Of a stretch of 64,000 nucleotides of DNA, positions 13,650-64,000 are shown one piece after another (positions within the stretch are counted from its first letter, which is position 1; the number at the start of each line of letters is the position of its first letter). Origin of the DNA: Cristatella mucedo (taxonomy: Eukaryota > Bryozoa > Phylactolaemata > Cristatellidae); assembly GCA_009760855.2 (NCBI GenBank), contig WPIO01000002.1:10366501-10430500 (forward strand), written 5' to 3'. A model generated the notes under the pieces. That model searched no databases and was not told the origin of the DNA. It saw only the letters and a list, made by a program, of their open reading frames with translations. A program made the position numbers and the translations under genes.

Positions 13650-14400
13650 CCGCATTTCTACCGTGGTGCTCAGCTTCGAGCTATCGCCGCAGTAACTTAG
13701 GTCGGCTTGCCATCGGTACGGTTGTTCAGGTTCCCACATGTCATGTGAGCTGATGAAGCGCTTGTGAACTTTTGCTAGGCCAGTGCCTTTTATCCGAATT
13801 CGGCCACCACCAGACGTTTTTCTGGATTTTATTCCTTCCAACTTCAAAGTCTGACTGCTCAAAAAGGATATGATGATGTGGCTAGAGCGATCACTCAGAA
13901 AGGTAAAGCACTTCGTCAGATTATTAGTGCGCCATATATCTGGAAAGCATAGTCAAGGCAGCAACTGCTAACGGCTGTGGTCATCGTTTCTGCTTCGAGT
14001 GTTTGGAAAAATGGGGCAAAAGGAAACTTTAATGCTCCCTATGCAGCCAAACCTTTACTTCTATCGTATATGCGGCTGAAAATGGTGCCAGAACTTCGTG
14101 CCCTGTTACTCGAAGCCACGGAAGACCGTAAAGCGACTGCTCCTACTACGGTTCAGATGGTGACTCAGAGTTCAAATTTGAGGACCCTTCAGCCAGCTTA
14201 TTTAAATTTGTGTTACTACGTACAGATGCCTATGGACATGCCTACAGCTACATCTACCGTGGACGAGGACTCGAACAGCATCGGCAGCAGCATTGGCAGC
14301 AGCAGCAGCAGCTTGAACATAATCACCGGAAGGAGAAGCTGTAGCAGGAGTTAAAATAAGACACCGGCAGAAACTTATATTACTTCGAGTGACCCACAAA
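13650..14400 (+). pseudogene. TOPORS-like RING gene copy, broken
   Basis: The 5' part (CTCAGCTTCGAGCTATCGCC, then GTCGGCTTGCCATC) matches the leaders at 39.85, 47.1 and 53.05 kb. The RING frame (13929-14044) reads CAIYLES, then NGCGHRFCFECLEKWGKRKL, a stop, CSLC. One zinc-ligand Cys is Tyr, and stops lie before the RING and between the last ligands. The codons continue as QTFTSIVYAAENGARTSCPV; then a frameshift moves coding to the frame at about 14226, MPMDMPTATSTVDEDSNSI, and a Ser/Gln repeat tract. The splice acceptor seen in the other copies is TTCCTTCCAA here, without the AG. Known TOPORS proteins are ubiquitin/SUMO E3 ligases; this copy cannot encode one. Confidence 0.82.
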
Positions 14401-14654
14401 CTTTGAAAATTATAGCTAAACTAAATGAACAGTGCCTAGCAACTCCAAGACTCAACTACGCATGCACTCACAATCACTTACATTCTCACACACTCACCCA
14501 CGCTCACACTCGCCGCCGAAGCTTTTCTTAGAAATAATGAACGTAACGATTTAATGGATAAAGTAAGAAAGAAAGGTAAAACCACAGAGTCTTTCACGAA
14601 CTTCTGGCAGGCTAAGACGGTCAAAAAAATAATTCTAACAAAATAAAAAGTATA

Positions 14655-14795
14655 TTTTATTTGCATTGCCCTAAGAGAACTTAGCCTCTATTCAGGCGCT
14701 TCACATAAACCACGGGACTTGAGCTCACGACCTCGGCCAGACCTTGATTTGGATGAGCATATTAACCACTAGGCTAATCCAGCACGGCTTTCCTG
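14655..14795 (-). mobile_element. tRNA-derived SINE with L2-type 3' tail
   Basis: Minus strand: TTAGCCTAGTGGTTAATATG (A box) and GAGGTCGTGAGCTCAAGTCC (B-box region), then TGTGAAGCGCCTGAATAGAG and AAGTTCTCTTAGGGC. The last two blocks are the L2 LINE tail. SINEs that borrow a LINE tail are mobilised by that LINE in other animals; the same is inferred here. Confidence 0.78.
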
Positions 14796-15134
14796 AGTTT
14801 AGAACGCCGAGCTGGAATCTAGACGCTTCAATGTTGCCACCGCGTCGAATGGTGAATTTCTCAATTTCTGTCCAAGGCTTAGGGCAACGCGCCACGACAC
14901 GCCAAACTATATTAAAGCGGAAAATTCTAACGTCAGCTGAATCAAAGAAGGATGAATTTTAATTCCTAACAACCGTGGTGACATTTAGTTCTCTGAGGGT
15001 AACATATCGTTTCACAATGTTAGGAATGCTGCGTCTAAATAATAATCTTCACATGATAGTAGAGTATTGTAAGAGCCTCGTCTGCTAGATATCTCTGCCG
15101 CTGTCGATAAATTTATAATAACGTTATATCTCTA

Positions 15135-15287
15135 ATTCATCTGCAAAGCAACATAAGAGAACTTAATATATATTCATATATACATATAGTACAAGGCTCG
15201 AACCCACGACCTCAGTCATAAAATCCATTCAACTTGATCCTGGTCGAGGTTAGCACCTTGACCGCTCGGCCAAACCACTAAATCATT
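15135..15287 (-). mobile_element. tRNA-Leu/Ser-like SINE
   Basis: Minus strand: TTTGGCCGAGCGGTCAAGGT is a good A box of the Leu/Ser tRNA type, and GGTCGTGGGTTCGAGCC is a perfect B box. A (TA)-rich linker and AATATATATTAAGTTCTCTT, an L2-like tail core, follow. The acceptor stem does not pair, so this is a SINE rather than a tRNA gene. Confidence 0.8.
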
Positions 15288-15961
15288 CTTGAGCGAAAAT
15301 AATATCACCAGATCATTAGGCACTTCACCACTAAAATTGTTTAGGTATTTTTAGAGGCACAACTCGAAGAGCTACCTGGACTGTCCATGTAGTTTTCGAG
15401 TAAGCATCTAAACCCACGGAACCTAGGGTTTCATTCTCTGCTTCAACTTCCTTTCAAAACCTTAATTTCATTCCACATTCTTGAATCTCTCTAATCAAGT
15501 TAATAAATTCACTCTATTGCTGAGAGTAAAACTTTTTCAAAATTAACCTGCTGGGAGCTGGCATTTTGAGCAGGCCAGCGATCGCTGGACGGCCGAAGTT
15601 CTAAGTGATTGTGCCTTGCTCGAGTGAGCGTTCAAAGATTAAGATTAGTTACCTCAAGAAGCTGCTTCAAACGGCCACTGGAGGGAGAGGGTTACTAGAA
15701 ATCGCTGGTGGAACAATCTCTGAGCTCGGCTGAGTAGCGAAATACCGCGAAGTCTGTGCCATCTAGGCAATATCGGCAACAAATACAGCCACTCGGCCGG
15801 CAACATAGCTGCTCTGGGTGACTGGTTAAATTAGTAAGAATAATAATGTAGAGTATTCATAGCATCCACAGAGAAAAAATTAGCTCCTTGTAGGAATTTT
15901 ACAAATAATGTGGGTGCTAAAATTGTGCATGTAATCACTTGACTACAGATATGCTTCTCTA
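15288..15961. other. No recognisable feature
   Basis: No open frame of note and no recognised repeat until the L2-like tail at about 15970. Confidence 0.35.
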
Positions 15962-16015
15962 CAACGAAGATGTAAAGTGCCCAGAAAGAGATTTGTTCTC
16001 TTAGGGCTCTGCTAA
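15962..16015 (+). mobile_element. Isolated L2-like tail
   Basis: GATGTAAAGTGCCCAGAAAG, then AGATTTGTTCTCTTAGGGCT, matches the L2/SINE 3' tail. No LINE body is visible next to it, so it is either a tail-only insertion or the end of a degraded SINE. Confidence 0.6.
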
Positions 16016-16079
16016 ACATGTCCTATCGCAAATCATGAGGAATTTACTCAATGGTTGCCATGATTAAGAGCATCGTCCA

Positions 16080-16560
16080 TCCAGGGGCAGTTATACCCGG
16101 TGGCTTATGCAGCAATATTTAGCAGCAGCGATCCAAAAAAGCCGACAACCTCGTGCGAGCAATTCTGACGGATTACAACGGAGCCCAAAGTTCAGTACCC
16201 CGACGGTGGCAATAGAAATGAACCTCATACGGCTGATATACATGATTTCAATGAGTAAAGTGACTAATGTAGCACGTGTGCGGACCCTAGTCAAAGGTCG
16301 ATGTGGTGAAATCCGGGAAACCTGTTACGTGGCTTGAAAATCGTTTAGGAATTACGTGACAGCCCATAGCTGGAAGCACGTAATGGGTGGATTTTGAGTG
16401 CAGCAGTATTTACTGAAGATGGTGTAATGAGGTGAATATTCTTCCTGTGAAGACGGCTTACCTTGAGATCACGCATGTAGCATTGGTGCAGCAAGCTTTA
16501 GGTGCTGTAGTTTAGGTTTCCAAAAGTCTAGTCAGCCTGGCTTGAGAGCTTCGGCTGGTG
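16080..16560 (+). repeat. T1 repeat, segment B and flank
   Basis: This is diverged from but colinear with 5.04-5.47 kb: AGCAGCAGCGATCC, GTGACTAATGTAGCACGTGT, GATGTGGTGAAATCCGGGAA and ACTGAAGATGGTGTAATGAG. The last block equals the inverted-repeat arm of the 45.6-46.8 kb element. Non-coding. Confidence 0.6.
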
Positions 16561-16597
16561 CAGCAACTTTTGAGATTATGGAAAATAGATCTTCAGT

Positions 16598-17110
16598 TCT
16601 CATGCACAGGGTCAGCAAGCAAACATGCTTAGGCCATGCACAGTGTAAGCACGCATAAGCACACAAAGCAGGAATCGTGTGGACTCACTAAATGCTAAAG
16701 TAAAAAGATGCGCTTTAATTCCTTTTTATATGTGGTCAAGGAGATGCCGTGAAGTAAGTCGGAAGTGAGCTCGAGACTTTGGGAGCATACGATGTAAAAG
16801 CACAATCTCCAAAGGATTAGAGGTTCATACGCGGTATAGGCAAGCGATTAGATTCCGAAAAGCGGGTGGTACGACGCTTAACCTGCTGGGGGAGTAGTTC
16901 TGACAGGTAGGCTGGAGCCATAGAATGAAGGGACATAAAAGTGAGTGACAGTACCTTGAATTCGATGTGCTGCTTGACTGGGAGCCAGTGCATGTCGGCA
17001 AGAAGTGGTGACATGGGGCAACTGCTACGCTCACGACAGATAAACCTAGCTGCAGAGTTTTGCATCAACTGTGAGTGCCTGATTGCGCAGGCCAGTACTG
17101 AGCGTAAATA
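16598..17110 (-). mobile_element. L2 LINE, 3' UTR and RT C-terminal fragment
   Basis: Minus-strand codons read CAIRHSQLMQNSAARFICRE, HWLPVKQHIEFKVLSLTFMS and APAYLSELLPQQVKRRTTRF. These are homologous to the copy at 49 kb at moderate divergence. The open frame spans 16817-17143. The 3' part is rearranged: the tail and (ATT)n are missing and the 3' UTR starts near 16598. Confidence 0.85.
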
Positions 17111-17515
17111 GTCCCCAAACCGAGATATAAGCCGATAATACATGTATATCTAGCTCACGTGGCTCGTTGCATTTCAATACAAAGTGCATGCACTGCCTGT
17201 TGATAAGGCAATGCATGAACCTTTGCAGAACTAGTGGCCTTATTTATGCTTACTGTGCCTATAAAATAGGTTTATCAAAGCACCGGAAAACTCTGATTGT
17301 TTTCGAAAGTTAAACTCGTGAACAAGAGTCTTGCCATATCTAATTGAATGCTGTCTACATCCACTGACGTTTCGAGCTCAGTGTTTCTGGAAGAGATTGA
17401 GTGACTGAAATACCGGTATTACCTTACGTGCAATGAACCTACCACACAGTGCTTTAGAAGACAATTTTTATCAATATATTTATGAACATATTTATATATA
17501 CGTATACGTATATAT

Positions 17516-17517: not shown

Positions 17518-17589
<72 letters not shown>

Positions 17590-21390: not shown

Positions 21391-22729
21391 AAATGAATTA
21401 TATTTCTTTTTCATTAATAGGGCTACATGCATGCAGTTGGTCTCATCAAGTGGCTTTACCTTGCTTTAAGTTTATGTTCAACTATTTCTTAACTCAGAAG
21501 CTTGCCGTGGCAAACAACATCAGTTCTCAAGCAGAACAGATGGGCTTTTGTTGTTGCTTGTACTTTGCTGTAGTTGACAAGTATTTAGATGAATTGTCTT
21601 CAGTTTTGGTGAAGCAGCAGAGTTTTTGGTAATATCATCACTGATCATAGACTGGCTGCCAACTTAAAATTAAAGTAAAGGGCGGCTGAATCAATAGCAT
21701 AATGTATATATCAAGAAATAAAGGGAAATCCAAGAAAGTTCCTAGTTCCTTGCAAATTTAACCACTAACCAATACCTTCACAGATGCACGATTTCCCCCT
21801 GCATGTTCAAAAAATGTCCACCCTTGCAGTCGAAACGTGTGGGCCTAAAGCCTAAGCGCTGCTGTCAAAGCGTCCCAGCCTAAGGCCAAAATATCTGGAA
21901 CAAAAATGATCCAGGTCGAGACGTCTGATACCAGGCCGAGCAAGAGAATCGTGACCGGCTGGCGGTTGCAATGCTTCGTGGGAGAGCCACTGGTTTGCTC
22001 ACGTGCGAGTGTTGTCGCCAGATACGGTATCGTGGAAGAAAAAGACAGCTAGCAACATATATGCAATTTTTGTTAATTAATTACGTGATTAATGTATTAA
22101 AGTCGCTTATATTGCAGTAAAGTACCCTTGGACAGAGTTGCAATCCAGCATCGGTTCAACTTAGGACTAAGCATTAGCAGATGCATTCAGGAATTGGAAC
22201 TTGAGAGCTGAGTCTCGGAAATGATACCGTGGGCTAAATTGCGAAGTTGAGCTAGCAGAAATGGTCACGGTGGCAAGACGCCACACGATGAATGCCAGTG
22301 CCGTCTTGCAGAGAAAGAGGCGTCTAGCTACGACACTATGCTATGAGTAGCTCCGTCATTTGCGAGCTAATGGGTAGCTTAGTGATATTCGTTGCTGCTG
22401 CTGCTGCTGTTCCTTTCATTGCCCGTTGAAGCACTGACTCGGCGAGTCGGTGCAAAGCAGGACCCATTGTTGGCCGTTCGAGGAAGAGCTACCCGAAACC
22501 CTTTCGGTTCCGTGTCTTGTTGCTGAGCGACCGGTCGTCTGTGGCCACTTCCGTGATTACGGCTTTGAGACAGAGAAGTGTGACCCGTCCTGCTGCATCG
22601 ATTTTGCGAGTGACTCGCAGTCTGACGACTACCTGCAAACTCGCAGCCCGTCGTCAGCCGTCGCGTCGAAGACTTTGTGCCACTCGTAGAGTTCGTCGTG
22701 CTCAGTGACTGACCAACTCGGCTGCTGCC
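21391..22729. other. No firm feature; possible downstream part of the 23-kb gene
   Basis: Nothing is recognised from 21391 to about 22400. From 22400 to 22729 the minus strand continues, in a shifted frame past the stop at 22730, with Ser/Arg-rich codons (STSGTKSSTRRL, RQTASHSQNRCS, SQSRNHGSGHRR). This could be decayed C-terminal coding sequence of the TOPORS-like copy upstream. A (GCT)n run stands at about 22391-22410. Confidence 0.35.
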
Positions 22730-24120
22730 TTAACGGCCCCTAGACGTCGTGGCACCACGGGCAAGCTCTGTAGTTCTTCTGCATCCTGCTCTGGATGCAG
22801 CAGCAGCAGCAGCAGCAGCTGCCAGAAGGCTTCGACAGTGGCTACGACGGCCTAACTCGTCATCGTCTGATTCTGCTGGCAGATCGCTGATGGATGTCGA
22901 AACCGACAGCGCTCCGGCCCTGAAGGCAGCTGCGGCAGTCTCAACTGCAGCGGCAGCAGCTTTGGAAGCAGCTGAAACAGAAGCTTTAGCTGCAGCTGCA
23001 ACAGCAGCGGGAGAAGCAGCAGACGAGAAGCAGCAGGTGTAGCAGCAGAACCTGCCAGAGCGGCTGAGATGGCCGTCGTAGTCATCGCTCTCGCTCGACG
23101 AGTTGACAGGGGCTGATGGCAATGAGGTCGTGGACAACAACCGGCTAGCACGGCTGCTGCCCTGACGGCACCCAGATGTAATGGCGCCGAGCGCACTCTC
23201 TCTTGCTCTACTGCTTTCTGCCCTGGGTGCAGCTGCTGCCCCCAGAGGGCTGCCAGAGTGGCTGCGATGGCCGACATAGTCATCGTTCTCGCTCGGCACG
23301 CAGACTGGCGTTAGATCGCTCCACGGCCTTTCTTCGCCAATTATCAGCACCTCGGATGAGCCATCTGAATCATCTGCAGCAGGGCTGAAGTTATCGAGCC
23401 GTACCGAAGAAGCTGCAGCAGCCGTTGAACGGACCGGCTCAGGCTCGGGCTGACGATGCACAGACGACAGCCTACTAGCAGCCAATCGAGCCGCACCGGG
23501 CACGGACACTGCTGCATCACACCCTTGATTCGTTGTTCTGTGCAAGGCATTTGGCAAGGAGTTCGCCGACGGCAGAAGCAAAGTAGGCACCGACCGCTTA
23601 ACAGATGACGAAGAAGCCCATTCGTCGGACTGCATGCATTCATGGCGCCTTCTACGACGTGCGTTAAACAGCTCCATATATTGAAAACGTCTGCAATTAT
23701 TGGCAGATCGCTGCTAGAAGTAGACGCAGTTTCGGTCGTGGACAGTGCCCCGGGGCTGGAGGCATTTTCATTACTCGAAACTGCTGCAGCAGCAGCTGAA
23801 GTAGTTGCAGTTGCAGCAGCTGAACCCAAACCAGCAGCAGCAGCAGCAGCTGGACGAGCCTGTGTGCCACCAGGCATCTGTCGACCGCACTGAATGGGCT
23901 GCTGGTAAGCCGGGCATGGTATACAAGGTCGACTGAGCGAGGCCAGGAACGAGCCCACTCGCTCTTCCATTGGCTCTGTCTCGATGTCTGTGACGTCAGT
24001 CTGCCGAAGAGCAAAAGGGGGTAGCCTACGAAAATTGGGTAAAAAATCAAGTATTTTTTTAAGTGGTCTTTTAAACGGTAAATATCTCAGGAATGCAATA
24101 CAAATTTTGACGATCGACAA
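22730..24120 (-). pseudogene. TOPORS-like gene copy, C-terminal Ser/Ala-rich and SIM region
   Basis: Two overlapping frames (24120-23344 and 23677-22730) together read as one low-complexity protein, so at least one frameshift or an unrecognised intron lies near 23.65 kb. Upstream: poly-Ala and the SDLPIIAD block. Downstream, 315 codons stay open. Features in order: RRRRR; PEPEPV; AADDSDGSSEVLIIGEERPW, an acidic-plus-hydrophobic core like a SUMO-interaction motif; ENDDYVGHRSHSGSPLGAAA; ESDDYDGHLSRSG; SISDLPAESDDDELGRRSH; poly-Ala. The acidic/Arg-Ser module is present three times. The SIM block recurs at 43.1, 52.65 and 63.9 kb. The RING exon lies 3 kb upstream on the same strand (27.1-27.6 kb), with a MULE between. 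TOPORS proteins have this order (RING, then Ser/Arg-rich tail with SIMs); the assignment is inference. Confidence 0.65.
23318..23383 (-). other. SUMO-interaction-like motif block
   Basis: Encodes DDSDGSSEVLIIGEERPW: a Ser/Asp-rich stretch followed by a four-residue aliphatic core (VLII) and acidic residues, the classic SIM layout. It is the most conserved block between copies: V/A-[IL]-[IV]-I-x-E-[ED]-[RK]-P, followed by (G)MPVS in three of them. Confidence 0.6.
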
Positions 24121-24632: not shown

Positions 24633-25952
24633 ATGCATACAGCCAATCCAATATCCACTTCCGACCCCTTGTTATCTGCCGCCATTACATCTAACAGCCA
24701 GGTGTTGGACGTTCTCCCACAAGCTTCCAAGATGAGTGGTTCAATGCAATGCTCGCTTCGTTCTTCAACTATTGGGCAGTGCACGGCTGGTGCTGTGAGT
24801 GCAGGCCGTGATGCAACTCGAGTAAATGAAGGAGTTTTGGTGAGTAATGTAGGGGAATCGTGCGGCCCTCGGAAACGTGGATGATCGAGGGAACTGCCGG
24901 TTAGGCCCGCGGGTGGTGTCGCCACGCCCACACCCAAAACACGACGGATAGTGAAAGAGAAAGAAGAGAACGAGGGTGACAATTTCCTGTTTGGAAATCG
25001 TATTTTTGATGTTGCCGCACTGGCTACGGCGTTGATGGCTTACGCTCGGTGCCCTGCTTGTAATAGCCAAGTCTATTGTAGGGAAACGGACCTAGTGGGT
25101 CTTGCGAGTACGGTTGTACTTAGATGTAGGAGCCGCATTTGCAAAAAATAGCTTAACATGCCTTTCTATCCGTCCCTTAGCAGGGAAGAGATGAAAGCCT
25201 TGCTAGCTGCAAATAAAGAAGACAGTGAGAAGATGATGGTTGCCAAGCAAGGTCGTGTAAGGTCGACAGAGCCTGAGCTGCCCCCGAACATTCAGGCAAT
25301 TTATGCTGCTAGGAGCGTTGGGCTAGGAAGAGCAGGGGCTGAAAGACTTTTTGGGTTTTTAGATTTGCCTCCCCCTATCCCATCTAAATGCTACACAGAT
25401 TGTGTGAAAGCAATTGCAGCTGCAGCTACGAAAGAGGCTGATCTGTCAATGGTGAGAGCTGTTGAAGAGGAGAAGGCTTTGGCTAACTCGAGTGATATAA
25501 CCATCGCCGTCGATGGCACGTGGAGGACCCGTGGCTTTCAATCGAAGCATGGAGTAGCAACAGGCACTTCCCTTAAAACAGGAAAGGCACTAGATGCAGA
25601 AGTGCTCTGTGTAGCATGCAAGGTTTGTGAAGCTGGTAAGCGAGGAGAGCATGACTGCGATAAAAATTTCAGTGGCACAAGTGGTGCAATGGAAGGGGAA
25701 GGGGCAAAACGTATGTTTGAACACTCGCTAGAAACCTGTGGTGCACGTTATCTTATGTAGCTAGGGGATGGTGATTCCAAAGCTTGGCAAAGTGTAACTA
25801 AAGCCAAACTATATGGAGAGGATGTTCATGGAGGGATACGACAGGGAATCCAAGAGAGCTATTTTAGCAAAGGCGAAATACAGCCTCAAGAAGAAAGATG
25901 TACGTAGGAAGCCTGTACAGAGGCAAAAAAAATGATAAGGCATACTGCTCAG
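24633..25952 (+). pseudogene. Mutator-like (MULE) transposase with three in-frame stops
   Basis: One reading frame carries the whole protein: a Ser-rich N-terminus from 24633, NRIFDVAALATALMAYARCP with CPAC and later Cys ligands (a zinc-binding block), and KALLAANKEDSEKMMVA. These are followed by DITIAVDGTWRTRGFQSKHG, a Cys-rich EVLCVACKVCEAGKRGEHDC, FSGTSGAMEGEGAKRMFEHS, and LGDGDSKAWQSV. AVDGTWRTRG and LGDGDS hold the first two catalytic Asp positions of the Mutator-like transposase domain family widespread in animals. In-frame stops are at 24882, 25149 and 25758; the last replaces one residue just before LGDGDS. I see no frameshift before about 25830. The third catalytic residue and C-terminus are not recognised. 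The element lies between two TOPORS-like parts on the other strand. Terminal inverted repeats were not found. Confidence 0.85.
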
Positions 25953-27105
25953 GTGATGGACCATTTATGTAGATAATTAGAAAACCCCGAGAAAGTAAGC
26001 CGAGTTGCTCACGTGCCTGTCTGCCACTGTATACTGTCCGAGCTGAACAGAACGACTGCCTTTTTCAAGGCAATTGTCGATTTTTGCATTATGCAGCTTC
26101 TGCTTCAAATATATGCCAGCATTATTGGTCTCTTGGTTGTCGGTTGTCTTTGTTTGCACTCGCCAAAACTTCCGGTTTTGGCAATGGAGGCTGCAATGAT
26201 GGATGCTGGCAAAATGTTGTCAAAGCACAACTTTCATCCATATCGATGAATGCTGAGACTCGTAGCTCCTCCAGAAAGTTAAATAAACATCATCTGCAAC
26301 TGCATTCACCACTGAATGCACCACGGACTTTCACTTACTCCATGTTCATTCTTGCTCGTTGCAGTTGCTTGTTACCACTGTTAGCCTTATAAATTTACAG
26401 CTTCGTCAAAACTCGGCCGATCGATGTGAAATTCGAAATACATGCTCTTAAGTATGTGTTTCGATGTTGTATGTCAATAAATATATTAACAATCATGTTA
26501 TTCGTCACCTACATGCTGGCAGCTTTTGGCAGCTTCAGTTGGCTTGTCTGAGTGCTGTCACAGCAGTATTACTTGGTACCTGGTACATTGTACAACTTGG
26601 TCGATACTGGGCCGATCTGTGTAAAACTTGGAATAAAGGTGGAGCTCACCTGTCTCCACACTCCCCCCCCCTGTGCATCTAGGCATGAGGGGTGTGTATG
26701 TATATAATGTGCCTTTCACAAAGTGACCTTGGATTGTGTTCGTGATGACAAGTCAACAGTTTGAGATGTCCTAATTTTTTTTTTAAAGTTGGTTGTAGGG
26801 GGAGTGTGCAGTAGAATGTCTTGCATTTTTTGAGTGGTTTGCTGTATTTCTACAAAAACATTTTCTGGATCGGAAAACTGGAGCTGCCTTTTACCAGCAG
26901 TGCTATACACGACCTTGGACTTTTTAAAGGTCACCAGAAGGTCAAAACATTAGCTACATTATATCAAACGATAGCTAATGCTACCAGTGTTCTTTGTGCC
27001 AATTTTCATGCCAATCAGTTTACTGGTCTTCGTACAATATTTTTTAAACATGATTTTGGAGGGACAACTCCCCCTATTGGCGGCCATTTTGAGGGATAAC
27101 TCCTT
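25953..27105. other. No recognisable feature
   Basis: Possible remains of the MULE 3' part or of the interrupted TOPORS-like gene. Two diverged copies of a short block (AACTCGGCCGATCGATGTGA at 26410 and TACTGGGCCGATCTGTGTAA at 26605) stand about 200 bases apart. No coding assignment. Confidence 0.35.
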
Positions 27106-27582
27106 CTACTGGCCGACTCCCCCCCTCGTCGGTCGATGCTGCTGCCTCCGACGCCGGAACAAAAGCATACTTCCAAAGTGATCACTGCTATTCTGCCGAG
27201 ATGACAATGCGGCCTCATTGTTTAACTCATGGCTTCTACCCAAAATAGGCAGGGCTACTGCTGGTAGTCTTCCTGCCTGATGCTCAGCAGCAGTAGGAGC
27301 TTGCTGGCTCTCACGAACAAAGTAACGATGTGGCTCACTGTTTTCATAAAAATGTGTTAACGAGGTAAAGGTGGCCTTGCAGAGGTGGCATTCCGGCTTA
27401 CTTACACTCCATTCTGCAAGGCAGTCAAAGCAGAAGCGATGAGCACAGCAGCTGGGACTTGCCGAACATGTAATGCTGTCCATGCATATAGTGGACGTAC
27501 GATCGGACGAAGTGCTGGAACTTTCCAAGCGACCGCTGACCGCCACCTCGTCGGTTCATTGCTGAGCCGACAGACTGAAAAG
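27106..27582 (-). pseudogene. TOPORS-like RING exon, degenerate
   Basis: Behind a splice-acceptor-like TTGTTCCTTTGCAG (AG at 27583-27584) the minus strand encodes ESSSTSSDRTSTICMDSI, then CCAHRFCFDCLAEW, SKPECHLCKATFTSLTHFYE and RESQQAPTAAEHQ. The His, the FCFDC pair and the final CHLC are kept, but the first RING Cys is Ser (STIC where the 39-kb copy has CAIC). One extra base near 27540 shifts the frame relative to the other copies, and a TGA stands in frame upstream. The tail RRRRRQQHRPTRGG is basic. TOPORS RING fingers share the HxFCFxCxxxW spacing. It could once have formed one gene with 22.7-24.1 kb. Confidence 0.78.
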
Positions 27583-27717
27583 CTGCAAAGGAACAAATTG
27601 CGAATGAACGTCGGGTTGTGGCCGACCCCTGAAAACAGCTGCTGAAAACCTCTGGACAGTTTTCTCGGTCTGACCACAGACTGCATGGCAATAGGTAGCT
27701 TTTCAGTTTCTTCCGAA

Positions 27718-39047: not shown

Positions 39048-39860
39048 CTACACACTGTCCACTTTGTATTTGTGCTGAGTCTTTGGCTCACTCAAAGTAA
39101 TTATATAAGTAGCTGCCGGCATGTTAGCTCCTGCTCCGCCTGCTTCCGGTGCTGCTTCCGGTGCTCGTGCTCGAGGAGCTGCTGCAGCTGCAGCAACGGC
39201 GCAAGGTGCAGCATCGGCAGTGACTGCTGCTTCTGCTGCTTCTGCTGCTTCTGCTGCTCGAGTCCTCACCCACGGTAGATGTCGTTGCAGGCCTATCCAT
39301 AGGCGTTTGCTCATAGCCAAATTCATCTGAATAATCTGATGCTTCCTCGGTGCTGAACTCAGAGCTGCTGTCCGAATCATAGTACGAGTAAACGCTTTCC
39401 GGCGTTCCAGGGCTTCGAATAACAGGGCAGGAAGATTTTACACCATCTTCAGCCACGTATACGATAGCAGTAAATGTTCTCCTGCATATGGGGCATCCGA
39501 GGTTCCTTTTGCTCCATTTCGACAAACACTCGAAGCAGAAACGGTGATTACAGCTATTAGATGTTGCTGGCTTAACTATGCTTTCAAGACATATGGCGCA
39601 CGAATAATCGGAAAAAGTGCTGACCCTTTCTGAGTGATTGCTGGAGCCACCTCGTCGGCTCTTTGTCGAGCAGTCCGAGCTTGACGCTGCAAGGAATACA
39701 AGCCAGAAAATAGTCTGGTTGTCGGCAAACTATGATAAAAGCCGCTGGCCAAGCAGAAGTTCACAAGCATTTAAGCAGCTCAAAAGATTCGTCAGAACCT
39801 GAAAGACGGTGACCCTGGCAAGCCGACCTCAGTTACTGCAGCGACAGCTTGAAGCTGAGC
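39048..39860 (-). CDS. TOPORS-like RING-finger protein, best-preserved RING exon
   Basis: The minus strand is open without a stop from 39729 to 39124 (201 codons). The exon most likely begins at 39686, directly behind GTATTCCTTGCAG, a canonical splice acceptor. Order: DCSTKSRRGGSS; RING with all ligands (CAICLESI, then SNSCNHRFCFECLSKW, then LGCPICRRTF, about 39600-39490); TAIVYVAEDGVKSSCPVIRS; acidic YYDSDSSSEFSTEEASDY; then a Ser/Arg repeat. The HRFCFECxxKWSK spacing is that of TOPORS/ICP0-type RING E3 ligases. At about 39.27 kb a trinucleotide-repeat tract begins; the Ser frame stops at 39124, while the next frame reads poly-Ala and PAATYI. That block resembles PAETYI in the 13.6-kb copy, so a slip may separate the true C-terminus. 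No ATG lies in this exon, so a 5' exon would be needed. The leader to 39860 is shared with three other copies. It may be functional or a recent pseudogene. Confidence 0.72.
39686..39700 (-). promoter_or_regulatory. Predicted 3' splice site of the RING exon
   Basis: Minus strand GTATTCCTTGCAG with the AG at 39688-39687. The equivalent sites read TTCCTTTGCAG at 27.59 kb and TTCCTCGCAG at 46.95 kb, all followed by a conserved region about 20-30 bases before the Arg-Arg-Gly-Gly-type codons. In the dead copy at 13.8 kb the AG is lost. Confidence 0.55.
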
Positions 39861-39889: not shown

Positions 39890-41010
39890 TGTATGTTATT
39901 TTTAGCACTAAAGCTTCATCTGTTGCTTACGATATTGGTGTTTACGGTACACATAGATTCCTTGCAGATGCTATAGGAGATGTTCTGGTTTAGTGAGTGA
40001 AGCGGGTCGCATACACCCGGGAAAGTCGAGACCAGATGTCGCAAATACATGGACCAATATGGAAGTATTATTCCTGTCTGTGGAAGGCCGAATTTTAGCT
40101 ATGTCATGTAGGTGAAAGTGCGTGGGCGTGACTGAAGCTTATGTGGTCGTCCACTGCAATGTCAGTGGAAAAAGACACCAAGATTACGTGCAGATGCAAC
40201 AAGACACTTGCTGGTTAAGCAGATTTTGAGCGTTTGAAGTTTTCAAATTTCATAATCGCATTTTGTTGCAGCTGTAATTAGTTATTGGTTATCGCCATTC
40301 AATTTTAAAGGTTGCTGCCATCCATGTGAGTTGTTAATCAAAACATGGATAAAGAAAAGCAGCAAAAGAAGATTCAGAGAAAAATAGAAATAAAGAGTAA
40401 AATAAATAAATAGGAGAAAAGTACTAGACAGAATTAGTTCGACGTGCTCGAAGGCTAGGTGTGATCAAAGCAGAGGTACAACTGAGTGTTTCATTTGCAT
40501 TGCAGTGAAAGCTTAGATTGTGCCGGGCAATCGCATCGGCAACAAGGAGAGTCTATATCGTGAAAAGAAATAGACTGATTCACAGAGCCCTGAATGCAAA
40601 TTCTTCAGCGGTTCCCACTCGGATATCTAGTACTCGTTCTTTCTCTCACTCAGGTACGGCCTCAGTCTTTGTAGTGCTACGCCAGAGATTCCCGAGCGAT
40701 ATGCCAGAAGCTCGTTTGGTGATAAGTGATTGCAAGCAGCCAAAATGTTGAAACAAACAGGCGGGGAGACTAACTTTGCATCCCTAACAAGGACGTTATA
40801 GCTCCGAAGTGATGAGTCGGTGAAATGATGTGCTACAGTCGGCTTCAGGCAAGTACATGCCTTTGAAGGAGAACTGAGGATGTGAGTTCCATAGTCTAGA
40901 ATTTGGTGCATATATTATAGATAATACTGAGCTCTGCAGCCATCGCTGCTCCTTTAGCAAAGGATTCGTATGAAAGAACCTCATTTTGGCCAGCCTTGCA
41001 GCCATGTATT
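39890..41010 (-). mobile_element. Composite LINE with T-rich insert (minus copy 1)
   Basis: Minus strand, from 41010 down: CTCAGTTCTCCTTCAAAGGC, CACATCATTTCACCG, codons LSPNELLAYRSGISGVALQR, and TTGTACCTCTGCTTTGATCA. A pyrimidine-rich spacer (40.42-40.33 kb) follows, then ATGGATGGCAGC, TGCATCTGCACGTAATC and a second jump near 40.0 kb (GAACATCTCC). Same order as 11.6-12.7 and 48.96-48.1 kb. Confidence 0.65.
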
Positions 41011-42829: not shown

Positions 42830-43214
42830 AGGTAGCCTTTTACGACCAGTGAAGTGAGTGTCTCAAAGTCAGGTGACTACACTTAAACGCAACGTCCGTC
42901 TGCTGTACGTGAGCGACAGCGTGGCGGCAGGTGAAAATGCGTTCGTTTGAAACCACGGGATATAATGGCTGCTGCCTCGACGCTCCTAAATGTGTTGGCG
43001 CTTCATGCATATTCCTTACCTCTACTGCTTCGTGGTCTGGGTGCAGCGCCAGCAGAAGCCCCCAGGGGGCTGCGAGAGCGGCTACGACGGCCGCCATCAT
43101 TCTCGTTCGGCAAGCTGACTGGCATGCCATCACCCGAAGGCTTTTCTTCGGCAATGATTATGGCTTCGGATGAGCTATCCGAGTCGTCTGCAGCGTCAGG
43201 ATCAGCACAAAATA
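42830..43214 (-). pseudogene. TOPORS-like SIM and Arg/Ser segment
   Basis: Minus-strand codons read DPDAADDSDSSSEAIIIAEE, then KPSGDGMPVSLPNENDGGRR, SRSRSPLGASAG and PRSSRGKEYA. This is homologous to DDSDGSSEVLIIGEERPW...GSPLGAAAAPR at 23.3 kb. The frame ends at a stop near 43003; the RING part is absent because an L2 3' end is joined directly upstream at 43214. R1 follows on the same strand. Confidence 0.75.
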
Positions 43215-43590
43215 TGGTCAGTGGTAGCATGCAGAGGCACATAAAGGAAGTTTCACAGAGACCCGCTTAAAGCAGTGATAGCTATATGTACAATTAGTAA
43301 AATGTCAAGTCAGGAGAATTCGTGACGCAGGCATGGAGTGAGTTTCACGCTTTGGGAGCATTCGATCTAAAGGCATGGTCTCCATAGGGTTTGAGATTTA
43401 TGCAAGATATGAGTAAACCATTCGTTTTTAAAAAGGAGGTGGAAATGTGCTTAGCCAGATGGGGCACTAGATCTCACTGGGAGGCTGGAGCTAAAGAATA
43501 AAGAGACCTACAATTGAGCGTGAAAACCTTGAAGGCAATGCGTTGCTTGACTTTGAGCCAGTGCAGGTCGGCAAGAGTGATGAGATGTGG
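43215..43590 (-). mobile_element. L2 LINE fragment joined to TOPORS-like sequence
   Basis: Truncated 3' UTR (CTACCACTGACCATATTTTG, minus strand) and C-terminal codons (plus strand shows GTCAGGAGAATTCGTGACGC, TTTGGGAGCATTCGATCTAA and TTGCTTGACTTTGAGCCAGT). Tail and (ATT)n are missing: the UTR stops where the SIM segment begins. Confidence 0.78.
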
Positions 43591-46762: not shown

Positions 46763-46789
46763 TATACATATATGTGTACTTACATTCCA
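45593..46789. repeat. T1 segments B-C between long inverted repeats
   Basis: The left arm (45593-45706) and right arm (46640-46789) are reverse complements. The inner 34 bp (45673-45706 / 46640-46673) match perfectly. The outer 30 bp (TGGAATGTAAGTACACATAT...) are also perfect and are joined to the inner part by (TA)n/(TG)n or (CA)n. Between the arms, segments B and C are colinear with the minus strand of 5.35-4.35 kb. No transposase-like frame is present, so any mobility would be non-autonomous. The right outer arm runs into TOPORS-like RING codons. Confidence 0.85.
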
Positions 46790-47130
46790 AGCAGGAAAGA
46801 TGATCGCCGATATTAGCAGTTGCAGTGTTGACTATGCTTTCTAAATATTTGGCTCACGAATAATCCTACGAAGTGGTCAACCTATCCGAGTGCTCGCTGG
46901 AGTCACCTCGTCAGCTCTTTGTCGAGCAGTCAGACTTTGTAGCTGCGAGGAATAAAAGCCAGTAAAACCTCTGGTTGTCGTTGAACCCGTATAATTTGCT
47001 AGACAAGCCTTAGTTCACAAGTGTTTCAGCAACTCACAAGACTTGTGAGAACCTGAACGACCGTGCCTCTGGCAAGCCGACCTCAGTCACTGCAGCGATA
47101 GCTTGAAGCTGCGACCCTCAGCAAAGAATC
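46790..47130 (-). pseudogene. TOPORS-like gene copy: leader and start of RING
   Basis: Minus strand, 47130 down: AGCTTCAAGCTATCGCTGCA, TGAGGTCGGCTTGCCAGAGG, acceptor TTCCTCGCAG, then codons SDCSTKS, RGDSSEHSDR, YLESIVNTATANIGDH and LSCLEC. Stops precede the RING and several ligands are replaced. The coding sequence is cut after LEC by the inverted-repeat arm at 46789. Confidence 0.75.
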
Positions 47131-47539
47131 AGCTCGGAAATGATAAAATTAATAATAATGCTCATTATAGACATCACACTGTGCCGTGTTTATCTTTTAA
47201 TCGGTTGCCTTACCACACGTTTTGTGTTGCAAGAGGGGCAATAAATGACATAGTTAATGACATGCAAGGCATGTATTCTACTCAGGAAAGCATGCAAAAA
47301 TACTCAAGACGGCACTACTGGCCGATGGTAAGTAGGTCCCTGAGTGAGCAAGCTGAACTCACAGGTGTGAAAAGCATACAGGTACGTCCATTGTTGTATT
47401 ATGATTAAAACATGCAGTTCCTTTTCTTCGTCACTACGTCCTCTGTTTTATGAAAGCACAACGGCATAAAATAAAAATTGCTCGGACTGAGCCAATGCTG
47501 TCTGGAGCAGGTGGTCTTACAGCTGCTTTTAGATTGAAA
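47131..47539. other. No recognisable feature
   Basis: An open frame at 47103-47408 has no motif. Confidence 0.35.
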
Positions 47540-49058: not shown

Positions 49059-49063
49059 TAAAC

Positions 49064-50369
49064 TGGCATCACTGGCACTGCTCTGCAGTGGTTCAGGTCC
49101 TATCTCAGTGGGAGACTCCAGAGTGTTGACGTGAATGGACAAAGATCGTCTGAAGTACCTCTAAAATATGGAGTACCTCAGGGCTCTGTGCTAGGTCCGG
49201 TTCTTTTCACCGTTTATACTCTCCCTCTCGCTGATGTGATTGCCAAGCACAATCTAGGCTTTCACTTCTATGCGGATGACACTCAGTTGTACCTTTGCTT
49301 TGATCCCTCCCAGCCTTCGAGCACCTCAAATTCTCTCAACTCACTTGCTGCATGCATTGATGACATCCGATCATGGATGGCAGCAAATTTTCTAAAACTA
49401 AACGATGATAAAACTAACTTACTAGTTATGGGCAAACCTAGTGTTATTCAGAAATTGGAAAGGCTGACTTTCAAAATTGGCTCTGCCAGCATATCTCCAG
49501 TTGCATCAGCTCGAAATCTAGGTGTCATATTCCAAAGCGACCTCTCGTTAGACGACCACATCAGCTCCACAGTCAAATCAGCCTATTTTCAGCTTCATAA
49601 CATTGCTAAAATTAGGGCTGGTTTAGATAAGGATACCACGTCCAAGTTGGTCCATGCATTCGTGACATCTCGTCTCGACTTCTGCAACTCACTGCTTACT
49701 GGCCTACCAGCATGTGCGATCAGGCGATTGCAGCTGGTGCAAAACTCTGCAGCTAGGCTTGTCTGTCGTGAGCGTCGCAGTTGCCACATTACTCCACTTC
49801 TCGCCGACCTGCACTGGTTACCAGTCAAGCAACGGATTGACTTCAAGGTTTTGTCGCTCACTTTTAGGTCTCTTCATTCTATGGCTCCAGCCTATCTTTC
49901 AGATACACTACCCCATCAGGCAAAGCATCGTACCACTCGCTTTTCGGAATCCAACAGTCTAGAAATACCTCGTACAAACCTTAAATCCTTTGGAGACCGT
50001 GCATTTAGCTCGTATGCTCCCACAGCCTGGAACTCCCTCCCGACCAGCATCAGAACATCCCCTGACCTGACCACATTTAAAAGAAACTTAAAAACATACC
50101 TATTTAGGACAGCATTTAGTGGGTCCTTGTGATTCGTCCTCGATGTGCTTATGCGTGCTGACACTGTTCATGCTGCCACTAACCACATTTGCATGCTGAC
50201 CCAGTGCATGTAACCCCTAACCATGTTATTCATTTTGTTTGTTTTTCAAGCATGATTTTACTTACTATTCTATTGCATATCACTTTGCAGCAAATGTAAA
50301 GCGCCTAGAAAGAGATTAAGTTCTCTGAGGGCGCTTTATCAAGTGCAATATTATTATTATTATTATTAT
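49064..50369 (+). mobile_element. L2 LINE, youngest-looking copy, with target duplication
   Basis: 1306-bp 5'-truncated insertion: RT C-terminal half, 3' UTR, the tail AAAGCGCCTAGAAAGAGATT ... TTCTCTGAGGGCGC, and (ATT)n. TAAAC stands at 49059-49063 and at 50370-50374. The flanks are the two parts of one family 2 LINE frame. It begins at the codons GITGTALQWF. Confidence 0.92.
49065..50132 (+). CDS. L2 reverse transcriptase ORF, C-terminal half, open
   Basis: The frame is open from 49065 to the stop at 50130-50132, about 355 codons, although no ATG stands at its start because the element is 5'-truncated. Motifs in order: WFRSYLSGRL; GVPQGSVLGPVLFTVYTLPL (RT palm motif B); HFYADDTQLY, the catalytic motif with both Asp (about codons 66-75); LKLNDDKTNLLVMG; ASARNLGVIFQSDLSLDDHI; then the C-terminal LDFCNSLLTGLPACAIRRLQ, HWLPVKQRIDFKVLSLTFRS, FGDRAFSSYA and LKTYLFRTAFSGSL. 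The endonuclease and RT fingers are missing, so it cannot retrotranspose alone. It is the reference against which the other copies were read. Confidence 0.9.
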   Translation, partial: GITGTALQWFRSYLSGRLQSVDVNGQRSSEVPLKYGVPQGSVLGPVLFTVYTLPLADVIAKHNLGFHFYADDTQLYLCFDPSQPSSTSNSLNSLAACIDDIRSWMAANFLKLNDDKTNLLVMGKPSVIQKLERLTFKIGSASISPVASARNLGVIFQSDLSLDDHISSTVKSAYFQLHNIAKIRAGLDKDTTSKLVHAFVTSRLDFCNSLLTGLPACAIRRLQLVQNSAARLVCRERRSCHITPLLADLHWLPVKQRIDFKVLSLTFRSLHSMAPAYLSDTLPHQAKHRTTRFSESNSLEIPRTNLKSFGDRAFSSYAPTAWNSLPTSIRTSPDLTTFKRNLKTYLFRTAFSGSL

Positions 50370-50374
50370 TAAAC

Positions 50375-52100: not shown

Positions 52101-52369
52101 AGTCGCCGGGAGAGTCCGATTTTGCTTCACCCGGTTGCAAAGCTAAATGTTCCAGAAAGTTGCCCGCATGCAGGAAAATTTCCGTTAGAGTCAAGCAGCA
52201 GATTAAAAATTCGGAAATATCTCAAATTAATTTTCTATAGCCTAGAGCGAGGCGCCAGGCAGCCTAAAAATGCGCAGTGGCCAGCATTGATATTAACTAC
52301 AGAAAGTGTCTCAAAGTCTGGCGATTACACACAAACTCACCGTCCGTCGGCCTTCGAGTCGTAGGCGAG

Positions 52370-53070
52370 GCAGCTGGTGGGAGTGCATCCGTGGGCACCG
52401 ACGAACAGACGTGGCTGCTGACAGGAAGAGCCCTAAATGTATTGGCACTATGCAGATTCCTTACCTCCACTGCTTCTCTTCTTCCAAAACCGCCTTACCT
52501 AGTGTGCCATCTCTTCTTCCACTTGCTTCTGGCGCAGTAGCAGCAGCAGCCCCCGGGGGCTGCCAGTGTGGCCGTAACCACTCTCGGTCGACGAGCTGAC
52601 TGGCATGCCATCGAGCCACGGCCTATCTTCACTAATGACTATCACGTCGTATGAGCTATCTGAATCGTCTGCAGCACTGCTGAAGTCATCGAGTGGTGCC
52701 GAAGAAGAGGCAGGTGCCGCTGAGTGCACCAACGTAGGCTGGGCAGTCAATTCTCAGATGACAGCGTAGTAGTCTCCACTCGAGCCGCACCTGATTCGGG
52801 AAATGCTGCATTGCACCGTATCGTATTACCCAGACGTACGCTGTACAAACAATAAGAAGAAGCCCTCAACCTTCGTGAAGAATCACTGAAGCCACTTCGT
52901 TGGCTCGTTGCTGATCTGCCAGATAAAAACTCTGCAACTGACACGAACCCGAACAAACGTCAAGTTGTAGCTAAATCTCAAAAAAGCAACAGCACCAGTA
53001 GAAGTTCACAAGCGAGGGAGCAGATTGTCTGACTTTAGAGAACCCGACGTCACTGCAGGACAAGCTTGAA
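52370..53070 (-). pseudogene. TOPORS-like gene copy lacking the RING
   Basis: Minus strand: leader block AGCTTCAAGCTTGTCCTGCA at about 53070; codons SATSQRSGFSDSSRR, matching the region just before the RING in other copies. The sequence then goes directly to codons resembling NTIRCNAAFPESGAARVETT (compare CDAAVSVPGAARLAASRLSS at 23.5 kb), LDDFSSAADDSDSSYDVIVI, SEDRPWLDGMPVS and GHTGSPRG. The RING coding part is missing by internal deletion. Frameshifts lie near 52745 and 52540. R1 follows downstream on the same strand. Confidence 0.75.
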
Positions 53071-53229
53071 GCTGAACTTACCGTAGGCATACAATTCGCT
53101 AAAAAGGAACGAATATGGTTATAAATATTAGGAATGTAATAATAGTTACAACAATTATTATGCATTTGCTGTAACTGTAGCACCTGACGGGTTCTCATTA
53201 CCTCCGTTTGGATACTTCACTGCTAATTT

Positions 53230-60849: not shown

Positions 60850-61620
60850 TGATTACTTGGCTGATTTTCATCCAGTGCGTTTTGACGCCAACAATTGGTG
60901 AACAACTCATCACCAAGATTTATCCGTCGTAAATTTCAAAACTTAAACATTGCAACACGATACAAACACTCGTTTGTAGATCCATCCCTTTTGATGCTCC
61001 AGCCGAGTGATCTGAATTATCTCCGCATCTGGCATACCACTGAACGAAGAACACGTCAGTAGCTGACGTCGCATACTCCCCTGATTTAAAACGCTTAGAA
61101 AAGAAGATATACATTCGCCAGTTCCTGGAATCCTTGGCTCTGTCCTTTGGTCATTTTGAGCTACCCTGGATTTCTAAAGTGAGGACGATGGAAAAAGCTC
61201 CAAGAACGACGTGGTTTAATTTTAATACAAGCGATGACGGTCCTTAATTCCTGTCTCTTAGGAGTTGATTATTGACACATCACACCGCTTCTGGGTAAAC
61301 TGCACTGGCTCCCAGTCATGCAACTCATCAAATTCATGGTTTTCACATAAAATTATTGGTCGGTTAATGCTTTGGCTTTAGCCTATATATCAGATCAAAC
61401 ACCCAACCGGGCTAAGAATCATTCCAAGAGTTATATGAAACTGAATTATGAAATTACGAGACTGAACTGTGTACCGATATATTATACAAATCTAAAATCT
61501 TTCGGAGATGCCTTTAGATCATATGCTCCCAAAGCTCACGGCGCAGGCTGTAAAATGCTGGCTAATGTTAATTTGTAAGCTGCCCCGCCATCTTGCTTTA
61601 CTTAAATTTTAGACTTGTCT
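60850..61620 (+). mobile_element. Sequence extra to SD1, containing an L2 fragment
   Basis: 61265-61560 encodes HITPLLGKLHWLPVMQLIKF, then ALAYISDQTPNRAKNHSK, and TNLKSFGDAFRSYAPKA. This is an old L2 C-terminal part. The rest of the extra segment is not recognised. The first SD1 copy has no counterpart between about 10.05 and 10.08 kb. Confidence 0.6.
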
Positions 61621-62262
61621 GACTCTGACGCTTGAATCTAAAAGGAATCTCCTAAACGGGGGCATGTTTCTGGAAAGTGGAGATCCAATGAGCCATTCAG
61701 CCCTGGGAGGTACGGTCGTACGGTCCAGTGCGGCTATACGACTTTAAGTTCGGGGCTATTGTCCAGGTGAAAGCATCAGGAAGATTTAAGGGCTGCCTTC
61801 GGACAGCTTTCAAATTCAAGTTATTTTTTCTGAGAAGATCTAGTATTTCAAGCAGCCACGGTTTTGGCTCTTGATACTCTCCCTACAGACCAGGATCATC
61901 GATTCTAGAAATAAGGCATTCGTGAGGCGCTTGTATTGTAACTTATTTCTTTGAGTGGGCTATACAAATAAATTATTTCAGAGACATATACTAGAAGCCT
62001 GTGATTTGAGAGCAACGACCATCGTCTGGCTGAAATCCATCCGCCATCCGACCATACAGAAGCTACTCTCGACGACTTTTATTTTTTCCATGCATCGTTT
62101 GACATTTTTTATAGCAAAATCTTGCTTTAATATTTGAGAACGGTGATTAGACTAGCAAAAAAGGCATGGTAGTAACCAAATCTTACTTTATGGCCGTGTT
62201 CAATGTTTGTTCCGTGGTGGTCACGTCTCATCAATCAATGACTAGTCACCCCTGGAGTTATA

Positions 62263-62291
62263 CTTTATCAAGTGAATTATTATTATTACTA
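62263..62291 (+). mobile_element. 29-bp L2 tail-only micro-insertion with empty site
   Basis: CTTTATCAAGTGAATTATTA and a short (ATT)n lie between TTATA at 62258-62262 and TTATA at 62292-62296. The SD1 copy at 10.85 kb reads GGAGTTATAAAAAGATTTAA with nothing inserted. Confidence 0.8.
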
Positions 62292-62959
62292 TTATACAAT
62301 AATTCAATAGTTACCTGTATTTGTGTGAAACTACTTTTCAACAGATATGCCATAGCTTGGTGCGGATAATACTTGACCTGATTTTTGTGATTTTCCTTTC
62401 AAACATTATTACTATTTGAATCTCTTGCAAGAACTCGCAGAGTAAATGCTGATCTTGCAGACATTACATCCCGAATGTCAGCTACTTTGAGAACCACCGA
62501 GCTCTTTCCACCATGTGGCTAACCTAGAGAACTTAGCTCTTTCTATTGGTGATGCTACAGTGCAACCATAAACATGCATTCGAATTTACTTTCCCTCTTT
62601 GATAGCTACTTTAAATTTGGATGCTTTATTGTGACGAGAGATTCTGAAGCGAGCCATGGCCTTCCATCCAGACTCAGATTAATGACAACATACTTGGAGG
62701 CTTGCCTAAGATTTCAATGCCTCCCTGTACTGACAAGGATGGTTTTCCATAAGTCCGCATTGCAGAACTCTATAAAAAGGCATTACGTCCGTGCAGCTAG
62801 TCACGAATATGGCTACCAGGCAGAGCAAAACGTCCCAGAGATTCGTCCATACGAATCATTTTCTGAAGGACCAGAGATGCCTACTGATCGACCAATATAT
62901 ACTCGTAGAAAATGCAGTCTAACGCAGATGAAACTACGTTGTTTAATTATAATACCAAA

Positions 62960-63110
62960 GCCGGCGTATTTGTATACTTTTCTCTCCGGGGATCCTACTA
63001 ACCACCTGCTGGGAGTGCTGTCTAAGTGTTTAGGAGAACTTTGCCTAAGCAGCATGCATGTCATGCACCAGCCATTACCTATGGTGTGCTACTACTCTAT
63101 CATTGCCACC
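62960..63110 (+). repeat. Module M, third copy
   Basis: CCACCTGCTGGGAGTGCTGT, AGCAGCATGCATGTCATGCA, ATCATTGCCACCGAGCC. Inverted relative to 43.6 and 53.85 kb and joined to L2 at the same codons. Confidence 0.62.
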
Positions 63111-63865
63111 GAGCCCCTCTTCTCGCCGACCGAAATTGGCTCAGAGGCGAATGACGCATCGACTTCAAGGTTTTCTCTCTAACTTTGAGGTCCTTCCTTC
63201 TTTGGCTCCAGCCTAACAATCAGGTATTCTGCCCTACATGGCTAACCGACGCTCTAACCGCTTTTCGCGTTCGAACTGTTCACCCATCTCTTGTACAACT
63301 CTCAAATCATTTACAGACCGCACCTTTAGATCCTATGCTCCCAAAGCAGGGATGTCACTCCCAAACCACTATGCGGCATATCCTGACGTGACACGTTAAA
63401 AAAGAAAATTAAAAGCCATCTATTTATCATAGCATTTAGTGTCCCTGTGAATCGTCCTTTATATTTTTATGATTGCTGACAGTGTGCACCCTGCCACTGA
63501 ATACGATTCGACTTCAATGTTTACACACTCTCTTTTATGTACCTTCATTCTTTGTCTCCAGGTTGCTTAACAGATCTATTGCCGAACCAGTCTAAGCAAC
63601 GTTCCACCGTTTTTCGGTATTAACCGTTTACCTATACCTCGTACGAATATCAAATCCTTTAGAGACCGTGCCTTCAGATCGTGCGCACCCGGAGCATTGA
63701 ACCCACTCCCGACTTACTGCAACACACATCATGAATTCTCACGTCTAAAAAGTAACTAAAAACTCATCCGTTTATAACGGCAATTAGTGTGTCCCTCCGA
63801 AACGTTCTGTAGTTGCATCACGGTACTCACACTGTTTGTGCTGCCAGCAACAGCACTTGCTTGCA
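63111..63865 (+). mobile_element. Two L2 C-terminal fragments in tandem
   Basis: The first (63111-63490) carries TCGACTTCAAGGTTTTCTCT through ATTTATCATAGCATTTAGTG and the start of the 3' UTR. The second begins again at about 63505 (CGACTTCAATGTTTACACAC) and runs to a truncated 3' UTR (CACTGTTTGTGCTGCCAGCA) at about 63865. Frames broken. Confidence 0.75.
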
Positions 63866-64000
63866 GAATCTGGCGGTGTAGACGATCCGCATAACTCATC
63901 CGATGTAATTATCATTGGTTAAGAAAGGCCGTGGAATGATAGCATGCCAGTCAGCCTAGCGAGCGACAGTGATCCTAGCTGACAGCGATGGTGGACGTCA
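63866..64000 (+). pseudogene. TOPORS-like SIM segment, cut by window edge
   Basis: Codons ESGGVDDPHNSSDVIIIG, a stop, then ERPWNDSMPVSLASDSDPS and a second stop. Homologous to the SIM block at 23.35, 43.17 and 52.65 kb. The L2 3' UTR is joined directly upstream, as at 43.21 kb. The rest lies beyond the window. Confidence 0.72.

Follow-up and report, generated by a model that had tools for sequence, protein, structure and literature searches.

A 64,000-nucleotide stretch of the genome of the bryozoan Cristatella mucedo (GenBank assembly GCA_009760855.2, 572 Mb in 688 contigs), located at positions 10366501–10430500 of contig WPIO01000002.1 (C222) and called the window here, carries repeated pieces of a gene related to TOPORS. 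We find that these pieces very probably belong to a lineage-specific birth-and-death cluster of TOPORS-derived host genes, which have been duplicated locally, have mostly decayed, and when intact would plausibly encode SUMO-directed ligases. The copies are homologous to one another, are confined to one region, have flanks in common, and are in various states of decay. We propose that an early TOPORS paralogue lost the conserved middle domain while keeping the N-terminal RING, the block containing a SUMO-interacting motif (SIM) and an 'RTP' sequence, and an Arg-Ser-rich tail. Repeated duplication of its genomic DNA would have multiplied this paralogue within about 0.53 Mb of one contig. Most examined copies, including nearly all in the window, are broken by stops, loss of zinc ligands, deletions, and long interspersed nuclear element (LINE) or Mutator-like sequence, while a few keep open frames.

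Copies in the window

A first-pass annotation of the window had listed at least eight copies of one gene-like sequence in 50 kb. All eight sites carry homologous sequence, as detected with nhmmer models built from the copies (the SIM model was run twice) and by blastn, and the copies occur in both orientations. Four of the sites are RING-exon pieces (13.65, 27.3, 39.2, and 46.8 kb) and four are SIM/Arg-Ser pieces (22.6, 42.9, 52.3, and 63.8 kb); a fifth, weak RING-exon remnant is at 52.8–53.1 kb. The RING-exon model had six copies as input, including those at 13.65 and 39.2 kb, which match by construction, and the other window copies are independent of it. The SIM model was made from ten sequences, including the 22.6 and 42.9 kb copies, with those at 52.3 and 63.8 kb independent. 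Use of the 39 kb copy as a blastn query, which requires no model, recovered the pieces at 13.65 kb (E 1.7e-134), 46.8 kb (E 4.5e-72), 27.4 kb (E 1.8e-7), and 52.8–53.0 kb (E 9e-5). The RING piece at 27.3 kb and the C-terminal piece at 22.6–24.0 kb are on the same strand and in the correct order, as are the 46.8 kb RING and 42.9 kb SIM pieces. This arrangement suggests that the eight sites are not eight genes but halves of roughly six gene copies, insertions having split some of them.

The first RING-exon copy (13650–14352, + strand; nhmmer E 4.6e-217) belongs to subfamily C and is broken, its translation having seven in-frame stops in aligned codons 18–135 and Tyr in place of the second zinc ligand. 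Subfamily B is represented by a RING piece at 27274–27645 (− strand; tblastn with the 713-codon frame described below, E 3.6e-20; nhmmer 27645–27325, E 4.3e-39). Its frame is open, with the first zinc ligand replaced by Ser in the alignment. It probably supplies the 5' half of the gene seen at 24.0–22.6 kb, where a middle region and a SIM/poly-Ala/Arg-Ser part occur (22608–24030, − strand; tblastn with the same frame, E 6.4e-44). This stretch has open frames of 262 and 327 codons, between which the match to the 713-codon copy switches, and the nhmmer match to its SIM/Arg-Ser part (23482–22608, − strand) comprises two modules.

The 39 kb copy is the sole one in the window with an open RING and all eight zinc ligands. 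It forms a 201-codon open frame with a C3HC4 RING (39124–39729, − strand; Pfam zf-RING_2, E 1.3e-9; RING-exon nhmmer 39875–39175, E 2.1e-229), and, judging by eye from a TTGCAG acceptor, the likely start of its exon is 39686. A scan with the SIM model found no SIM block behind this frame within the window, and the copy would thus encode at most a RING-only protein.

The 46.8 kb copy (46779–47132, − strand; nhmmer E 4.8e-107) is the 5' part of a RING exon, has stops in translation, and is truncated within the RING. Its 3' half is probably the SIM/Arg-Ser block at 42853–43298 (− strand), identified by nhmmer, genome search, and its LINE junction, the initial 80–100 bases being LINE sequence. A SIM/Arg-Ser block in two pieces is present at 52302–52774 (− strand; nhmmer E 9.5e-36 and 8.6e-34), next to the weak RING-exon 5' remnant (52830–53087, − strand; nhmmer E 1.5e-15). 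The last site (63755–63974, + strand; nhmmer and LINE junction) is a LINE–SIM chimera that extends past the window to C222:10430738.

Relationship to TOPORS

A canonical TOPORS gene with a 959-codon open frame is present on contig C63 of this genome. Region 45–330 of C63 has 34–39% identity to TOPORS proteins (among those listed), and its RING and middle region align with vertebrate and insect TOPORS. The TOPORS-like identity proposed in the first-pass annotation is borne out by matches of both the RING and the SIM/'RTP' block to this gene. For the 668-codon open copy at C222 10.130 Mb (L011), BLASTP with C63 gave E 8e-19 in the RING, and 62% identity over 40 amino acids (E 1e-8) in the SIM/'RTP' block, which is followed by an Arg-Ser stretch in the cluster as in TOPORS. 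A profile of 16 chosen proteins (C63 plus 15 TOPORS), which were also those aligned, detects the TOPORS-type N-terminal C3HC4 RING in the 713-codon open copy at C222 10.006 Mb (L010; E 1.4e-21) and in the 39 kb copy (E 6.6e-17), neither of which is in the profile. The cluster and TOPORS have in common the W-[AS]-K...CP[LI]C pattern in this RING; the long copies also share, as judged by eye, a downstream V-I-I-V...RT(P/S)..LSSSES block and an Arg-Ser-rich stretch.

The cluster differs from TOPORS in that one locus holds many copies, the majority of those examined being broken, and in the middle domain common to C63 and the compared orthologues (C63 residues about 194–326), which was not found in the cluster sequences searched. 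The profile finds this domain in C63, itself a profile member, but not in L010, L011, or the 39 kb frame. The best six-frame match was at E 0.57 in a search that covered the window, 9.99–10.19 Mb, and five 10 kb stretches, with the 10.356 and 10.536 Mb copies and 10.19–10.37 Mb lying outside it.

Among Pfam models, only generic RING models reach cut-offs for C63, L010, L011, and the 39 kb frame; PF26084 was not returned for C63. When the L008 part of the 713-codon frame was used as a protein query, with the 7998 candidates sharing most words being scored, 14 proteins matched over 8–12% of the query (the RING), and every one has PF26084. A search with the C63 region matched 164 proteins; PF26084 is present in all 120 listed, and where a source name is given it is mostly Topors. 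Neither search turned up a recognisable relative of the cluster itself.

Distribution of copies in the genome

Genome searches at the protein level, in which all candidates were scored (44 of 44 for an 87-residue RING probe and 56 of 56 for a long probe from the 713-codon copy), place the family mainly in one region. The RING probe gave 22 matches, consisting of ten at C222 10.006–10.526 Mb, C63, and 11 weak RINGs elsewhere. The long probe gave 23, with 18 at C222 10.006–10.537 Mb, one at C222 13.308 Mb, one each on C63 and C44, and two on C464. These searches also detect diverged copies, at 10.006, 10.130, and 10.356 Mb. The last of these has a 632-codon frame, which matches the probe from residue 123 on, and no RING was reported there.

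The DNA searches of the genome covered the best candidates, namely 40 of 45 for the RING exon, 40 of 54 for the SIM exon, and 40 of 4538 for the upstream flank of the 39 kb copy. Thirteen of 67 RING-exon matches are at C222 10.380–10.526 Mb. All but one of these reach beyond query base 136, and seven (query included) cover RING codons at least partly. The other 54 are all inside query bases 1–136, a low-complexity Ser/Ala-coding part. Of 41 SIM matches, 24 are at 10.409–10.537 Mb, 16 are inside query bases 1–102 (the LINE part), and one is at C222:13308280. The pattern that the first-pass annotation had named as contrary to its own proposal, decayed local duplicates of a single host gene, is largely what is observed, apart from two long open copies nearby and a few weaker relatives elsewhere.

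Decay and selection

Two copies keep long open frames, the 713-codon L010 and the 668-codon L011, located 0.24–0.36 Mb from the window. They are 90% identical in protein and have a splice acceptor at the same place, as judged by eye. Their coding parts (L010:3127–5268 and L011:2847–4853) differ by 3.9% and their flanks by 9.6–12.8%, with about equal nonsynonymous (dN) and synonymous (dS) divergence; gene conversion is one possible explanation for the gap between coding and flanking divergence.

Six subfamily C RING exons were aligned by codon, leaving aside the truncated 46.8 kb copy and the pieces at 10.466, 10.492, and 10.509 Mb. Every exon except that of the 39 kb copy carries stops or has lost ligands. 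Over the 15 pairs of these copies, dN/dS in the RING is 0.41, as compared with 0.87 and 0.99 in shifted frames, an indication that the source gene was constrained. Among changes private to the 39 kb copy in codons 18–135, 15 of 34 are synonymous (p 0.004–0.035, depending on the assumed transition bias), as are 8 of 18 in the RING alone (p 0.03–0.10); these p values are uncorrected, twelve tests having been made for each transition-bias assumption. Broken copies lean the same way, with 15 of 39 synonymous in c498 (p 0.017–0.11) and 10 of 23 in the RING of c443 (p 0.018–0.08). The lean may thus date from the ancestral gene, and it does not demonstrate that the 39 kb copy is functional.

These data bear on an explanation that overlaps a mostly decayed birth-and-death cluster and is not exclusive of it, in which several copies, perhaps including the 39 kb RING-only frame, are active E3 ligases evolving rapidly under diversifying or conflict-driven selection. 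The two long open frames, with dN of about 0.05 and dS of about 0.04 (values given here with no significance test), are compatible with such selection, as are the intact ligands and synonymous private changes of the 39 kb copy. However, the broken copies c498 and c443 have the same synonymous lean, the tests are numerous and uncorrected, and dN/dS near 1 also fits relaxed constraint. We consider this explanation unlikely, although it deserves some weight.

Several observations weigh against a locally confined cluster whose source gene was a constrained TOPORS paralogue. Between the two long copies, dN is 0.051 and dS 0.042 (NG86), and dN/dS of about 1.2 means that no constraint is visible since their separation. 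The shifted-frame controls are unclear beside the RING (0.59 vs. 0.71 and 0.73 behind it; 0.66 vs. 1.85 and 0.63 before it). A RING tree favours such a cluster, placing the five cluster sequences used on one side of a branch with support 85/91, but it is built from 58 columns, support for this branch falls short of the starred threshold, and some branches are flagged as long. In addition to covering only the best candidates, the DNA searches miss diverged copies, since those at 10.006 Mb, 10.130 Mb, and 27 kb were not returned by the RING-exon search; confinement of the older members therefore rests on the protein searches. A lone SIM-region fragment (C222:13308280–13308704), which does not have the LINE part, is 3 Mb from the cluster. 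Weaker protein-level relatives also occur at C464:2107696–2109041, where part of the match is an acidic stretch, and at C44:2595944–2596237. These are possibly older family members, or may reflect chance similarity in acidic and RING parts; one lies within an 800-codon open frame.

Flanking sequences and mobile elements

Flanks of ten copies were compared, with repeats unmasked, by keeping pieces of similar offset that scored at least 60 bits. Pairs of subfamily C copies have colinear flanks in common, mostly 66–80% identical. The 13.65 and 46.8 kb copies share about 2 kb of flank at 73%, and the two long copies 5.4 kb at 90%. Sequence upstream of the presumed splice acceptor is also homologous between copies. 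As in local duplication, the copies within this one region have in common both their colinear flanks and the same insertions.

One such insertion is a divergent LINE reverse-transcriptase fragment directly ahead of the 39 kb RING exon (40022–40567, − strand; tblastn E 6e-11 and 9e-10), with 29–37% amino acid identity to the longest LINE reverse-transcriptase frame in the window (49062–50132, + strand; Pfam RVT_1, E 6.8e-14). When the flank upstream of the 39 kb copy was used as a query, 11 of 65 matches were in the cluster, and the other 54 were all inside query bases 84–690, the LINE part. Six other local matches enter this fragment from the unique left side, and four continue past it on the right.

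The junctions between LINE and SIM sequence were surveyed in 14 SIM copies, taken from 30 nhmmer rows, with the 49 kb LINE frame as the reference. Seven of the 14 have LINE sequence fused to the SIM block at roughly the same position, and in the other seven no LINE is present there. Within the window, the LINE chimeras of the first-pass annotation are real at 43.3 kb, where a LINE open reading frame fragment (43303–43575, − strand; tblastn and junction comparison with the 49 kb LINE) runs into the SIM block in the same sense, and at 63.8 kb. They are not found at 22.6 kb or at 52.3 kb, the SIM/Arg-Ser block at the latter having a LINE tail ~470 bases upstream instead. The LINE match in the chimeras ends at reference positions 50166–50199, about 170–200 bases short of the probable family end near 50370, and the chimera is therefore not a complete LINE end with transduced flank. 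LINE 3' transduction, in which a complete LINE 3' end would be followed by the gene segment, was accordingly rejected.

A Mutator-like transposase fragment (25152–25760, + strand; Pfam PF20700, E 9.9e-30) separates the RING half of the subfamily B copy from its C-terminal half. A search of 23.9–27.4 kb for inverted repeats found eight short imperfect pairs, the longest 21 nucleotides at 76%. One pair (24030–24049 with 26988–27007; 20 nucleotides, 75%) brackets the Mutator fragment.

The first-pass annotation had taken the association with mobile DNA as a sign that the gene was captured by an element or is a transposon-borne E3 ligase, that is, LINE or DNA-element cargo spread by transposition. 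The LINE joined to half of the SIM copies examined, the Mutator-like fragment inside one copy, and the presence of both orientations do resemble such a pattern. However, the other half of those SIM copies have no LINE at the junction, the LINE stops short of its family end, and the inverted repeats are short and imperfect, even with one pair around the Mutator fragment. Nor did the best-candidate searches find dispersed copies with constant ends, as the RING DNA is restricted to C222 10.38–10.53 Mb, and the SIM DNA is likewise local except for the 13.3 Mb fragment. Among these best candidates, no match off C222 holds RING or SIM DNA beyond low-complexity or LINE parts, and no off-cluster SIM match crosses the LINE–SIM junction, whereas the LINE segments adjoining the gene occur genome-wide without it. 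The shared flanks and junctions, together with these gene-free LINE segments, indicate duplication of host DNA rather than transposition, and make carriage by a mobile element very improbable. Spread of processed TOPORS mRNA copies by LINE machinery is scarcely credible, for although the window is rich in LINEs and a single exon makes up the main coding part, the homology upstream of the presumed splice acceptor and the shared flanks contradict processing, and the copies are moreover confined to one region.

Predicted function

The L010 and L011 frames each have both a RING and a SIM-like motif. Because these long members keep both parts, when intact they are most likely SUMO-directed RING ubiquitin ligases, as predicted from sequence. 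In an intact protein, the RING would recruit a charged E2 and the SIM would bind SUMO-modified nuclear proteins, as in TOPORS. Published studies report that the RING and SUMO-interacting motifs of human TOPORS are needed for 5-aza-dC tolerance, and the latter also for interaction with modified DNMT1 (PMC11183266), and that a TOPORS fragment ubiquitinates SUMO1 fusions in a manner dependent on one of its SIMs (PMC12002637). The two long copies resemble the SUMO-targeted ubiquitin ligases RNF4, RNF111, and TOPORS in having a RING and an acidic/hydrophobic SIM-like motif in one polypeptide. Unlike these ligases, the best RING copy in the window has no SIM block behind it. A bolder proposal sees the open-frame members as a new class of rapidly evolving, SUMO-directed ubiquitin ligases of TOPORS descent, in which the middle domain was lost and local duplication provides renewal; conflict with mobile elements or with viruses dependent on SUMO-controlled chromatin would be a possible driving force. 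This proposal appears improbable to us.

Precedents

Duplicated Topors-like genes are not unprecedented, as a pea aphid duplication table lists a Topors-like gene (PMC7475028), and the cluster adds a further case of a process already known. In the titles and abstract openings listed for literature on Topors with expansion, paralog, or transposable element, we found no description of a TOPORS gene cluster; absence from print is not claimed. As in other birth-and-death local gene clusters, the copies are locally confined, have shared flanks, mix open and broken members, and contain mobile-element insertions. Nothing fundamental sets this cluster apart from those, the unusual part being the gene family involved. 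The cluster shows local expansion and decay to be possible for a TOPORS-type gene. It also shows that the appearance of a transposon-borne E3 can arise when mobile elements insert into a cluster of duplicated genes. Were the open copies expressed, they would offer a natural experiment on the capabilities of a TOPORS-like protein that has no middle domain.

SIM array beyond the window

A tandem array of about nine SIM/Arg-Ser units and five short pieces occupies 12 kb beyond the window (C222:10444900–10456660; L013 and L014), downstream of a broken RING copy. The aligned parts of these units are 75–89% alike, and several have stops.

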